Assembly (NCBI RefSeq): GCF_009674605.1
Contig: NZ_WKJO01000001.1
Location: 124,001 to 188,000, forward strand
DNA: 64,000 nucleotides
Source: Haloferax litoreum
GTDB lineage: Archaea; Halobacteriota; Halobacteria; Halobacteriales; Haloferacaceae
Direction: 5' to 3'
Position numbers and translations under genes: made by a program. The notes under the pieces were generated by a model that saw nothing but the letters and a program-made list of their open reading frames with translations, did not search any database and was not told the origin of the DNA. Shown piece after piece: positions 17,080 to 43,874 of this stretch. Numbering within the stretch: the stretch's first letter is position 1; each line of letters starts with the position of its first letter.

Positions 17080-17283
17080 ATGCCGAGTCCTGGGACGCTC
17101 CGCGACAGCACCCAAATCGTACTTCCGTACGACCTGTTAGACGACGTGCGAGAGGAAATCGAATCGGAATTCGTCGTCTCGATTCACGAGAACACGCCCG
17201 AGACGTGTCGAATCATCGGGAGTCCGGTCGAGATTCGGAAAGTAGGCGACTATCTGGCACGTCAGGGAATCTCGCTTCCCTAA
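17080..17283 (+). CDS. Small conserved haloarchaeal protein (VNG_1110C-like)
   Basis: A 67-residue protein, MPSPGTLRDSTQIVLPYD to RQGISLP. It has a beta-alpha-beta feel: TQIVLPYDLLDDVREEIESE, then CRIIGSPVEIRKVGDYL. It resembles what databases call the VNG_1110C family (recalled, not checked). No metal or catalytic motif. It is probably its own transcript, divergent from drg across a 235-nt spacer in which I see nothing else. Confidence 0.7.
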   Translation: MPSPGTLRDSTQIVLPYDLLDDVREEIESEFVVSIHENTPETCRIIGSPVEIRKVGDYLARQGISLP

Positions 17284-17328
17284 CGGTCGTTCCGAAGGGC
17301 TTGTTACCACACAGTCTAACTGGCGAGT

Positions 17329-17694
17329 ATGGACGAAGCGCCGGGACTCTCCGACCAGTACCGCACGGCCAGTCCATGGCCGGTGTTCGTCGCACTCGGA
17401 ATCCCCATCTCTGAACTTGGCCTCCTGTTCGACCTGTTTCCGCTCGCAGTTGGCGGGTTGCTCCTGTTCACCGGGAGCATCGCCGGGATGCTTCGCGAGT
17501 CGGGTTACGTGAAATCCACGATGTGGTCGCTCGTCGTTCTCGCGGCCGTCTTGTTCGCATTCGGCGGTTTCCTCGCGTTCACCGACGTCAACCTCGTCAC
17601 GCGTGGATACGCAGTCATCGTCGCTGGTGTGTTGCTCCTCGTCGGTGGCGTCGTCTTCGAACTGTTCGTCCGCGACCAGCGGCAGGCGATTTGA
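17329..17694 (+). CDS. Cox-cluster membrane protein (121 aa)
   Basis: It has a short soluble N-terminus (MDEAPGLSDQYRTASPWP) and four hydrophobic segments: VFVALGIPISELGLLFDLF, LAVGGLLLFTGSIAG, WSLVVLAAVLFAFGGFLAF and VIVAGVLLLVGGVVF. It starts a run of small membrane genes leading to cytochrome oxidase subunit I; such genes are known as cox cluster proteins in haloarchaea. A role in oxidase assembly or as an accessory subunit is inferred from position only. Confidence 0.75.
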   Translation: MDEAPGLSDQYRTASPWPVFVALGIPISELGLLFDLFPLAVGGLLLFTGSIAGMLRESGYVKSTMWSLVVLAAVLFAFGGFLAFTDVNLVTRGYAVIVAGVLLLVGGVVFELFVRDQRQAI

Positions 17695-17826
17695 GCGACT
17701 GACACGCGACACTGTGGTCGCAGGATGCCACGGCAGTAGTGCTGTTTGCCCAGCACAGACCGTCCCGACTCCGTCCGCAACGAGAAACCAACAATCTATT
17801 TGAACGGCGTCCCCGAGAGTCTCGAT

Positions 17827-18186
17827 ATGGCAAGCAAGACCTTCGACAAGGAGACCATCCTCGACCTGACGGTCAACATGGTTCCGTTGGTCATCATCCT
17901 GTTCTTCGTGGTGGGCTTCGCTGTCTTCAACCCCTTCGGCATCGACTCGCTCACCTCGGGGCTTCAGTTCAGCATCATGATTGCGGCGTTCGTCCTGTTG
18001 GCGGCCCTCACGTACCTCTCGGGGAAGGCCATCGCCGGGTCGGAAAAGACTGACGTCGTGTACCCGCCGGGACAGGCGACGGTCCCTGGTGTGAAACCGC
18101 TCCACGAAGAACACGCCGAAGCCGAAGCAGAACTCGAAGAATCGGGCGACGGTGACGCAGTCGAAACGGCCGAAGGAACTGCTTAA
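17827..18186 (+). CDS. Cox-cluster membrane protein (DUF6684-like, 119 aa)
   Basis: ATG 17827 (MASKTFDKETILDLTVNMV) was chosen; the frame extends to 17746 but with weak coding character. Two transmembrane segments (VPLVIILFFVVGFAVF and FSIMIAAFVLLAALTYLSG) are followed by a 45-residue acidic tail (EEHAEAEAELEESGDG). It lies 62 nt upstream of oxidase subunit I on the same strand and is probably co-transcribed. It may be a small accessory subunit that anchors or stabilises subunit I; no cofactor ligands are seen. Confidence 0.75.
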   Translation: MASKTFDKETILDLTVNMVPLVIILFFVVGFAVFNPFGIDSLTSGLQFSIMIAAFVLLAALTYLSGKAIAGSEKTDVVYPPGQATVPGVKPLHEEHAEAEAELEESGDGDAVETAEGTA

Positions 18187-18248: not shown

Positions 18249-20078
18249 ATGGAGGTTAACGGACAGCTAGCACTGACGGTGTTGATGGGAATCTTCCTCA
18301 TCGCCGTCGCCGCGTGGCTCGCGCGGGTCGAAGATTGGCGGTCGTACACCCCGCTCGCGGGCGGTGGGGCCGTCGGAAGCACAGAGCAGTACGTCTCGGA
18401 GGAAAAGCCGTCCGGGGTTATTCGCTGGTTGACGACTGTCGACCACAAGGACATCGGGATTCTCTACGGTGCATATGGGCTCGTTGCCTTCGCCGTGGGT
18501 GGCCTGATGGTCGTCGTGATGCGCCTCGAACTCGCGGACCCTGCGAGTACACTGATTTCGAACACATTCTACAACTCGTTGCTCACCAGCCACGGGATTA
18601 CCATGCTCTTCCTGTTCGGGACGCCCATCATCGCGGCGTTCTCGAACTACTTCATTCCGCTCCTCATCGGCGCGGACGACATGGCATTCCCGCGTATCAA
18701 CGCAATCGCGTTCTGGCTTCTGCCGCCGGCGGCACTGCTCATCTGGGCCGGGTTCTTCCCCATTCCGGACGTCATCCCCGCGCAGACGGCGTGGACGATG
18801 TACACTCCGCTCTCGGCTGGTGCCGGATCCGGAAACCAGATGAACGCTGGTGTCGACCTGATGCTCCTCGGCCTGCACCTCTCCGGTGTCTCGGCCACGA
18901 TGGGTGCCATCAACTTCATCGCGACCATCTTCACCGAACGTAACGAGAAGGTCACCTGGGCCAACCTCGACATCTTCTCGTGGACCATCCTGACCCAGTC
19001 GGGTCTCATCCTGTTCGCGTTCCCGCTTCTCGGCAGCGCCATCCTCATGCTGCTGCTCGACCGGAACTTCGACACGATGTTCTTCGGCGTCGACGGCGGT
19101 GCAATCCTCTGGCAGCACCTGTTTTGGTTCTTCGGGCACCCCGAAGTCTACATCCTCGTGCTCCCCCCGATGGGTATCGTGAGCCTCGTGCTCCCCCGGT
19201 TCGCGGGTCGTCGCCTCTTCGGGTTCAAATTCGTCGTCTACTCCACGCTCGCGATTGGCGTGCTCTCGTTCGGTGTCTGGGCGCACCACATGTTCGCGAC
19301 GGGTATCGACCCCCGTCTCCGCGCCTCGTTCATGGCCGTCTCGCTCGCTATCGCGATTCCGAGTGCAGTCAAGACGTTCAACTGGATTACGACGATGTGG
19401 AACGGGAAGATTCGACTCACGACGCCGATGCTCTTCTGTATCGGCTTCGTGTCGAACTTCATCATCGGCGGCGTGACGGGCGTCTTCCTCGCGTCGATTC
19501 CGGTCGACCTCGTGCTCCACGACACCTACTACGTCGTCGGTCACTTCCACTACATCGTCATGGGAGCCATCGCCTTCGCCGGGTTCGCTGGCATCTACTA
19601 CTGGTTCCCCCTCTACACCGGTCGGATGTACCAGGTCACGCTCGGTAAGTGGCACTTCTGGCTGTCGATGGTCGGGACCAACCTGACGTTCTTCGTCATG
19701 GTGCTTCTCGGCTACGGCGGCATGCCACGTCGCTACGCGACGTACCTGCCGCAGTTCGCGACGCTCCACCAGATTGCGACGGTCGGTGCGCTCATCCTGC
19801 TCGTCGGCCAGATTATCTTCGTCTGGAACTTCGTCCAGTCGTGGCTCGAAGGGCCGAAAGTCGAAGACGGCGACCCGTGGGACCTCGCCGACGATGACCT
19901 GCTCACGTCCGAGTGGCACTGGTTCGACCGCAAACTGCAGACTGCCGTCACTGACGGCGGTGAAGAAGAGACTGAACTCGCGACCGACGGTGGTTTCTCC
20001 GAAAGAGAGAGCACGTTGGACGTGTCGTCCGACGATGGCGAACCAGTCGACGAGACTGACGCCGCTTCGGACGAGTAA
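18249..20078 (+). CDS. coxA: Cytochrome c oxidase subunit I (heme-copper oxidase)
   Basis: A 609-residue heme-copper oxidase catalytic subunit with 12 or more transmembrane helices. The low-spin heme ligand His is in TSHGITMLFLFG, the CuB/Tyr site in FFGHPEVYILVLPP, the CuB histidines in WAHHMFATG, and the heme a3 and heme a histidines in VVGHFHYIVMG. The Glu of GHPEVY and the Asp of DDMAFPR mark an A-type oxidase with D-channel elements. A roughly 60-residue acidic C-terminal tail is extra. It reduces oxygen to water and pumps protons in the cell membrane. Subunit II and III genes are not adjacent on the visible sequence. Confidence 0.95.
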   Translation: MEVNGQLALTVLMGIFLIAVAAWLARVEDWRSYTPLAGGGAVGSTEQYVSEEKPSGVIRWLTTVDHKDIGILYGAYGLVAFAVGGLMVVVMRLELADPASTLISNTFYNSLLTSHGITMLFLFGTPIIAAFSNYFIPLLIGADDMAFPRINAIAFWLLPPAALLIWAGFFPIPDVIPAQTAWTMYTPLSAGAGSGNQMNAGVDLMLLGLHLSGVSATMGAINFIATIFTERNEKVTWANLDIFSWTILTQSGLILFAFPLLGSAILMLLLDRNFDTMFFGVDGGAILWQHLFWFFGHPEVYILVLPPMGIVSLVLPRFAGRRLFGFKFVVYSTLAIGVLSFGVWAHHMFATGIDPRLRASFMAVSLAIAIPSAVKTFNWITTMWNGKIRLTTPMLFCIGFVSNFIIGGVTGVFLASIPVDLVLHDTYYVVGHFHYIVMGAIAFAGFAGIYYWFPLYTGRMYQVTLGKWHFWLSMVGTNLTFFVMVLLGYGGMPRRYATYLPQFATLHQIATVGALILLVGQIIFVWNFVQSWLEGPKVEDGDPWDLADDDLLTSEWHWFDRKLQTAVTDGGEEETELATDGGFSERESTLDVSSDDGEPVDETDAASDE

Positions 20079-20231: not shown

Positions 20232-20315
20232 TCAGATGACGAGGAGGATACCCACCACGAACATCAGTATCGCAACGGCCCCGAGGATGATTCCGAGAAT
20301 GTCCGTATCCGACAT
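20232..20315 (-). CDS. Single-pass membrane microprotein (27 aa) in the cox cluster
   Basis: ATG 20315 opens a 27-codon frame: MSDTDILGIILGAVAILM followed by FVVGILLVI. Nearly the whole peptide is one transmembrane helix with a short acidic N-terminus. Codon third positions are mostly G or C, as in real local genes. It lies between coxA and the next cox-cluster gene on the opposite strand. Tiny single-helix subunits are known in heme-copper oxidases (for example subunit IIa of ba3 oxidase), so a role as an oxidase accessory subunit is plausible but inferred. Confidence 0.6.
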   Translation of the reverse strand: MSDTDILGIILGAVAILMFVVGILLVI

Positions 20316-20406
20316 ACTGAGCAGTTGCGACTGTTCGGCTAAAGGTTCGTCGGTGCGTCCGAGCGGAACGAAAACTGCTAACCACGTGCGACCCAGACGG
20401 TGAGTC

Positions 20407-20670
20407 GTGAGTTCGAACGTCCGCGGTCAACGCTTCGTCCTCGGGTTGTACGCCGCTCTCGTCGCCGTCGCAGGCGTCGCGGGATTCCTCACTGGGACGT
20501 TCGTCTCGGGACTCTCGCAACCGCGGTTTCTGTTTTTGATTCCGTTCCCGGCGACACCGCTCGGTTTCGCGGCGTACGGCGCGTTGACTCTCGCACTCGT
20601 TCTCGGCATCCCACTCGCGCTCGTCGTCTTCGTCTCGGCCGGTATCGACGACGATGCGAAGAGTCAGTAG
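20407..20670 (+). CDS. Cox-cluster membrane protein (DUF7520-like, 87 aa)
   Basis: GTG 20407 (SSNVRGQRFVLGLYA) starts an 87-residue protein with two hydrophobic segments, LGLYAALVAVAGVAGFLTG and YGALTLALVLGIPLALVVF, joined by a loop with FLFLIPFPATPLGF. It ends in a short acidic tail. Position in the oxidase neighbourhood is the only functional evidence; the name is recalled from similar haloarchaeal proteins. Confidence 0.7.
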   Translation: MSSNVRGQRFVLGLYAALVAVAGVAGFLTGTFVSGLSQPRFLFLIPFPATPLGFAAYGALTLALVLGIPLALVVFVSAGIDDDAKSQ

Positions 20671-43682: not shown

Positions 43683-43874
43683 ATGGAGTTCGACCTTCCA
43701 AAGACAATCGCCCTACTCGTCGGTCTCGTCGCGCTCGGAACCGCCGCGCTCGTCGGGATGGGTGTCATGGCGACGAGTACCGTGTTGATGATGGTGACGC
43801 CTGCGATGCTCGTCTTCGGCGCGGTGTGTCTCGCAATCGGTATCAAACACGGCGAGTACCGCGCGCTCAACTGA
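43683..43874 (+). CDS. Small two-helix membrane protein (63 aa)
   Basis: ATG 43683 (MEFDLPKTIALLVGLVALG). Two transmembrane segments (IALLVGLVALGTAALVGMG and VLMMVTPAMLVFGAVCLAIG) and a short tail GIKHGEYRALN. Conserved in form with other small haloarchaeal membrane proteins (DUF7333-like, from memory). Converges on the DUF373 gene. Function unknown. Confidence 0.7.
   Translation: MEFDLPKTIALLVGLVALGTAALVGMGVMATSTVLMMVTPAMLVFGAVCLAIGIKHGEYRALN

Follow-up and report, generated by a model that had tools for sequence, protein, structure and literature searches.

The window, by which we mean the whole stretch of 64,000 nucleotides of Haloferax litoreum DNA that was analysed, carries a cytochrome oxidase locus in which a gene of only 27 codons is lodged between coxA and the gene coding for a DUF7520 membrane protein. 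The region 17080-18186, upstream of coxA, codes for a VNG_1110C-like protein, a DUF7541 protein and a DUF6684 protein. Beyond the DUF7520 gene are found a universal stress protein gene and a thioredoxin-like gene. The features used below are the following.

17329..17694, plus strand: DUF7541 gene, upstream of the DUF6684 gene.
17827..18186, plus strand: DUF6684 gene, upstream of coxA.
18249..20078, plus strand: coxA, coding for an A-type (aa3) oxidase subunit I of 609 amino acids (Pfam COX1, 506 bits).
20232..20315, minus strand: 27-codon microprotein gene, ATG to TGA, with one predicted transmembrane helix.
20337..20354, minus strand: BRE/TATA-like element ACCGACGAACCTTTAGCC, whose TTT at 20341-20343 begins 28 bases before the ATG of the microprotein gene.
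20407..20670, plus strand: DUF7520 membrane protein gene, the divergent neighbour of the microprotein gene in most relatives.

The 609-long CoxA has its best NCBIfam fit to CtaD_CoxA (665.3 bits, just short of the 670.75 cut-off) and carries the motif GHPEVY, which we take to be a mark of A-type enzymes. These best fits point to a neighbouring oxidase of A-type (aa3), not ba3. For H. volcanii, the relevant passages of PMC8305020 list HVO_0907 as coxA1, an assignment based on a paper with the title 'Cytochrome aa3 in Haloferax volcanii', and list HVO_0943 as cbaD and HVO_0945 as cbaA, compared there with the ba3 oxidase of Natronomonas. We infer that the window CoxA corresponds to HVO_0907. A loose scan of the window for the CuA motif of subunit II gave two matches, neither of them near the microprotein gene or coxA nor in a frame resembling subunit II. 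The window DUF7520 protein is 98% identical in Haloferax profundi; among named genomes, loci related through DUF7520 are limited to Haloferax profundi, Haloferax marinum and Halonotius roseus. Our literature search found no text naming DUF7541, DUF6684 or DUF7520.

The product of 20232-20315, MSDTDILGIILGAVAILMFVVGILLVI, has 27 residues with a single hydrophobic stretch. Both strands of the window together hold 138 ATG-started frames or tails of 24-36 residues, three of which (two distinct frames) contain a 19-mer with a mean hydropathy of at least 2.0; the microprotein comes first with 3.26. The complete frame with one transmembrane helix proposed in the first-pass annotation is thereby borne out. 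At 27 codons the gene falls short of the length that gene callers usually require, and ordinary gene calling would probably miss it. Elsewhere in the window, at 43767-43874 on the plus strand, a second short frame (MATSTVLMMVTPAMLVFGAVCLAIGIKHGEYRALN, 35 residues) also has a membrane-like helix; it lies in the gap that follows a frame which we read as aldo-keto-reductase-like, and it gave no NCBIfam match.

Absence of the frame from close relatives or frequent stops within it had been named beforehand as signs against a gene. Instead, the single-sequence search matched the full length without internal stop in every one of the 15 genus genomes, one of which is the window's own, with E from 1e-9 to 5e-8. 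Extended to the family with E up to 10, it matched 105 of 170 genomes, two of them weakly, and a 20-row profile found the microprotein at E<1e-10 in 103 of the 170. Weak extra hits of the single-sequence search (E 0.2-1.8) lie by their coordinates mostly inside CoxA and were judged to be chance likenesses of hydrophobic helices. The 103 genomes provided 106 family loci, the best-matching frame being taken at each: the frame is 27 residues long in 85 and 28 in 21, starting with ATG in 103 and GTG in 3. Addition of 40 loci chosen from the best matches in other families made a set of 146, in which lengths range from 27 to 32 residues.

Selection acts at the codon level. Pooled over 105 genus pairs, which are not independent of one another, dN/dS is 0.29, and in the five alternative frames of this DNA pN/pS is 0.69, 0.82, 0.96, 2.46 and 3.42. 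A chance frame is rejected on this ground together with the conservation throughout the genus. We conclude that 20232-20315 is a real, selected protein-coding gene. In the class sample, strong matches to its product occur under 8 of 11 haloarchaeal family labels. No full-length match was found outside the class in 187 genomes (the phylum sample of 226 less 39 of the class, as counted from listing order), where four weak partial matches had a best E of 0.007.

The promoter-like box accompanies the gene across this range. With the 146 loci aligned at the start codon, a TTT begins between -34 and -18 in 136, and at -28 or -27 in 115; base shuffles gave a mean of 17.3 with a maximum of 26 in 200 shuffles, and a downstream control gave 13/146. 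A TATA box so near the ATG means, in haloarchaeal promoters, that transcription should start at the ATG or immediately beside it. The box 28 bases before the microprotein start thus implies a leaderless mRNA, from which the peptide would be translated.

The gene had been described as antisense, which does not hold. The coxA stop codon is at 20078, so the two genes do not overlap, and the microprotein gene is a convergent, independent unit with its own promoter-like box. At 117 convergent loci measured, the stop-to-stop gap between coxA and the microprotein gene has a minimum of 12 bases and a median of 157, without a single overlap. The microprotein gene is found on the coxA strand at 13 of the 106 family loci, still between coxA and the DUF7520 gene; these are all five genomes of one genus and eight of the 11 of another. 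The box is kept in all 13. Flipping of the strand with place and box preserved indicates an autonomous gene that keeps its position but not its orientation.

The helix, called from hydropathy and periodicity, has several nearly fixed positions: L11 and M18 are present at all 146 loci, L25 at 144, G22 at 142 and A15 at 136, whereas Gly at position 8 is found at 107 only. Positions 9, 13, 16, 20, 23, 24 and 27 are variable. Residues 8, 11, 15, 18, 22 and 25 follow the 3-4 spacing of a heptad and fall on one face of the helix, with a mean entropy of 0.39 bits versus 1.36 elsewhere in the helix, the face having been chosen after seeing the data. Independently of that choice, the entropy has a periodicity peak at 98 degrees, like that of an alpha-helix, and none of 20000 permutations, run on a coarser angle grid, was as strong for the 121 distinct but related sequences. 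Conservation also affects L7 (139 loci), F19 (136) and T21 (128). Lys or Arg occupies residue 4 in 96 of 146 sequences and neither occurs after residue 6. Cys, His and Trp are absent from all 146, so binding or handling of haem or copper by the peptide is unlikely. Packing against another membrane protein would be the natural reading of such a helix.

Searches of Pfam, NCBIfam, PHROGs and PDB gave no family covering the microprotein beyond matches judged to be noise, and a PLSDB search gave no match. The weak Pfam matches were Mycobacteriophage_TM (13 of 20 members, best E 0.0024), DUF2970 and HCV_NS4a. These, and weak NCBIfam matches with a best E of 0.0027, were judged to be matches of low-complexity helices. 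A cytochrome c oxidase assembly protein model was touched by one of 32 members at E 0.086, also a low-complexity match in our judgement. In the main texts of the literature searched we recognised no description of the microprotein, and it may have been detected earlier in H. volcanii. No such peptide is mentioned in the passages of PMC8305020 on the oxidases. An H. volcanii Ribo-seq study (PMC12482152) reports that mass spectrometry detected no protein of less than 25 residues, and the word 'oxidase' is absent from its main text. As judged from sequence, the microprotein is a protein family covered by no library searched, found in the majority of the haloarchaeal families in the sample and linked to the coxA locus of aa3 type.

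This tie is seen in the neighbourhood of the gene. Among the 106 family loci, CoxA lies within ~1.5 kb in 97 and DUF7520 nearby in 101; for the 40 loci chosen from other families the numbers are 33 for CoxA (one of them a distant fragment) and 32 for DUF7520. Nine family loci have no CoxA within ~1.5 kb. They include that of G167 and one of G092, where CoxA starts ~1.4 kb away, as well as G169, whose best CoxA is 0.3 Mb from the microprotein, and G049, where it is on a different contig. At loci L113, L114 and L126, all of one f3 genus, DUF7520 is present with no CoxA within 2.5 kb. Four f4 loci (L222-L225) have the microprotein beside DUF6684 and DUF7541, in L223 also DUF7520, and the 19.5 kb searched there gave no CoxA; apparently the oxidase gene has moved out of this cluster and left the accessory genes behind.

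Phyletic distribution links the two proteins as well. This CoxA is found at E<=1e-150 in 102 of the 170 family genomes, all 102 of which carry the microprotein. Among the 68 others the microprotein occurs in one, G059 (73% complete), where CoxA is cut by the contig end beside it, as is visible in locus L046. When 26 genomes were examined singly, G049 being included as a carrier, 24 had only CoxA relatives of 38-43% identity, mostly in frames of 820-860 residues, G163 (56% complete) had no CoxA match and G049 alone had a 60% match. G049 is also the only one of the 26 with DUF7520.

The class sample extends this pattern to 391 genomes, with CoxA in 269 and the microprotein in 265 at E<=0.05 (32-row profile). 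At E<=1e-3 both are found in 253 genomes, CoxA only in 16, the microprotein only in three and neither in 119, in a tally whose non-family part was computed from hand-typed lists and to which 78 family genomes were added by hand. Inspection of the 16 CoxA-only genomes revealed a helix frame of 28-37 residues near coxA in 14, six of these being candidates only. The frame has 28-29 residues in 13, most with a TTT box upstream, and G193 has a diverged version of 37 residues near coxA. The locus of G219 is cut by a contig end, and G323, whose CoxA is 58% identical, has no candidate frame within flanks of 1.5 kb. The six candidates, mostly MPRKE- or MARKE-like and beside a 56-58% identical CoxA, were judged by length, place and box. 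At loci L191, L192 and L194-L197 a 28-residue helix frame, MPRKE- or MARKE-like and with MSRQV in L197, lies near such a 56-58% identical CoxA and close to a DUF7541 gene; these frames are perhaps a second branch of the microprotein family.

The microprotein-only genomes are G190 and G200, which have only CoxA relatives of 39-40% identity, and G410. At the G410 locus (L215), the CoxA relative next to the microprotein gene, which is intact, is matched as three separate segments; frame breaks or assembly errors may be the cause. Copy numbers differ between the two proteins. At least two CoxA matches are found in 55 of the 102 family genomes, a few of them being pieces of one broken gene; only three family genomes, G038, G060 and G092, have two strong microprotein matches. 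The extra copies of G038 and G092 are 2.8 kb from a second CoxA.

Small single-helix proteins that serve terminal oxidases are known in other systems. According to PMC8951039, CydX lies along CydA in the bd oxidase and is needed for its assembly, stability and activity, whereas CydH (CydY), whose gene stands apart from the oxidase operons, nevertheless occurs together with bd oxidases of the L-subfamily. The microprotein is alike in kind to CydX/CydS/AppX and CydH (CydY), all of one short transmembrane helix of ~3-4 kDa; it shares with them the conservation of a short single helix as a protein and a phyletic presence that follows the oxidase. It differs from them in that they serve bd and not haem-copper oxidases, and in that its gene stands beside that of subunit I, with its own box and usually in opposite orientation. 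Homology is not indicated: no CydX/CydH family appears among the Pfam and NCBIfam matches, and a profile search of PDB at E up to 10 matched neither a chain of this sort nor any oxidase chain, its one match being a putative transmembrane protein (E 0.96). For A-type oxidases, the aa3 enzymes of Paracoccus and Rhodobacter have subunit IV, a single-helix accessory subunit of ~50 residues.

The microprotein is very likely to be a minute component so far missing from the haloarchaeal oxidase built on this CoxA, or else a helper of it. We privilege, at a probability of roughly 0.6, the reading that it is a translated single-helix accessory subunit of 27 residues, structural or stabilising, of the aa3-type enzyme; by analogy, a subunit like CydX or CydH in kind appears to be the best reading. 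It brings together features computed from the genomes: the selected frame, the near-constant length, the promoter-like box, the linkage to and co-occurrence with CoxA, and the near-invariant helix face. Membership in the complex we infer from them. In this scheme the leaderless mRNA would be translated into a 27-residue membrane peptide inserting N-inside, in keeping with the Lys/Arg placement at its charged N terminus. The face formed by L11, A15, M18, G22 and L25 would then pack along a groove of CoxA, or else between it and an adjoining subunit, and this packing may let the oxidase assemble stably, as CydX does for the bd oxidase. Several points count against the reading. Copy number is not one per CoxA, and the f4 and f3 loci with no CoxA nearby also speak against a strict subunit, as do G190, G200, G049, G169 and G323; moreover, conservation extends beyond one face, as L7, F19 and T21 show. 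A self-dimer would also explain the fixed face.

The main competing explanation, which we consider rather unlikely, is that of a non-stoichiometric helper in assembly or maturation of the aa3 oxidase, acting with the DUF6684, DUF7541 and DUF7520 proteins and possibly serving more than one CoxA. The four f4 loci without CoxA, the distant CoxA relatives of G190 and G200 and the single microprotein copy usual in genomes with several CoxA matches all favour it; together with G049, G169 and G323, these cases would be equally compatible with an assembly factor or with a protein partnering the DUF proteins. However, the lack of Cys, His and Trp in 146 sequences is against a helper of this sort, a short and almost wholly hydrophobic helix with fixed positions resembles a packing element, and within the family, with hardly an exception, it is present where one type of CoxA is.

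It is improbable that the microprotein is a regulatory membrane peptide standing on its own, made under certain conditions and acting on the membrane or transiently on the oxidase. E. coli YohP (PMC12719787) is an example of a small stress-induced membrane protein in bacteria, and the box and strand of the microprotein gene, independent of coxA, agree with regulation of its own. Its linkage to coxA and their joint loss, however, point to a role dedicated to the oxidase over a general one. It is far less probable that the stretch works as DNA or RNA, as the DUF7520 promoter region or a regulatory RNA near the 3' end of coxA, with an incidental frame. Its location in a short gap, by a divergent gene start and convergent to coxA, would suit such a function, but codon-level selection operates in exactly the microprotein frame, its amino acids are conserved across haloarchaeal families and the frame survives inversion at 13 of the 106 loci. 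A purely antisense RNA or promoter DNA was rejected on account of frame selection, the strand flips and the lack of overlap with coxA.

The first-pass annotation had pointed to the tiny subunits of ba3-type oxidases. According to PMC3128077, archaeal subunit IIa (CbaD) proteins have 53-78 residues and a conserved Gly and Trp, their genes were looked for immediately before that of subunit II, and in several genomes they had been left unannotated. Like subunit IIa, the microprotein is a small single-helix protein at a haem-copper oxidase; unlike it, a component of B-type enzymes, it is encoded between a convergent coxA and a divergent DUF7520 gene, next to an A-type CoxA. Membership in the CbaD family is hardly credible: a single helix in an oxidase cluster is the common ground, set against an adjoining A-type CoxA with CtaD_CoxA as its best fit, a length of 27-32 residues, no Trp in 146 sequences and a gene that is not upstream of that of subunit II. 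What stands of the earlier proposal of an oxidase-cluster microprotein is a genuine single-helix gene tied to the coxA locus, whose product may be an oxidase subunit; the ba3 link is not supported.

Taken across the class, it is close to an even bet that the microprotein represents a haloarchaea-wide, so far unrecognised aa3 subunit of 27-28 residues, perhaps the smallest of any haem-copper oxidase, which would have stayed at the coxA locus from an ancestor early in the haloarchaea onwards, transcribed from a leaderless promoter of its own, flipping strand and rarely leaving its place. Haloarchaeal terminal oxidases are highly diverse and their respiratory chain has a number of unresolved questions, according to the passages of PMC8305020 on this subject. 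A protein of 27 residues, kept by selection and present or absent together with one type of oxidase, would be a missing component or helper of this enzyme. Its case shows that genes of less than 30 codons can be found by joining leaderless promoter, frame conservation and phyletic co-occurrence.
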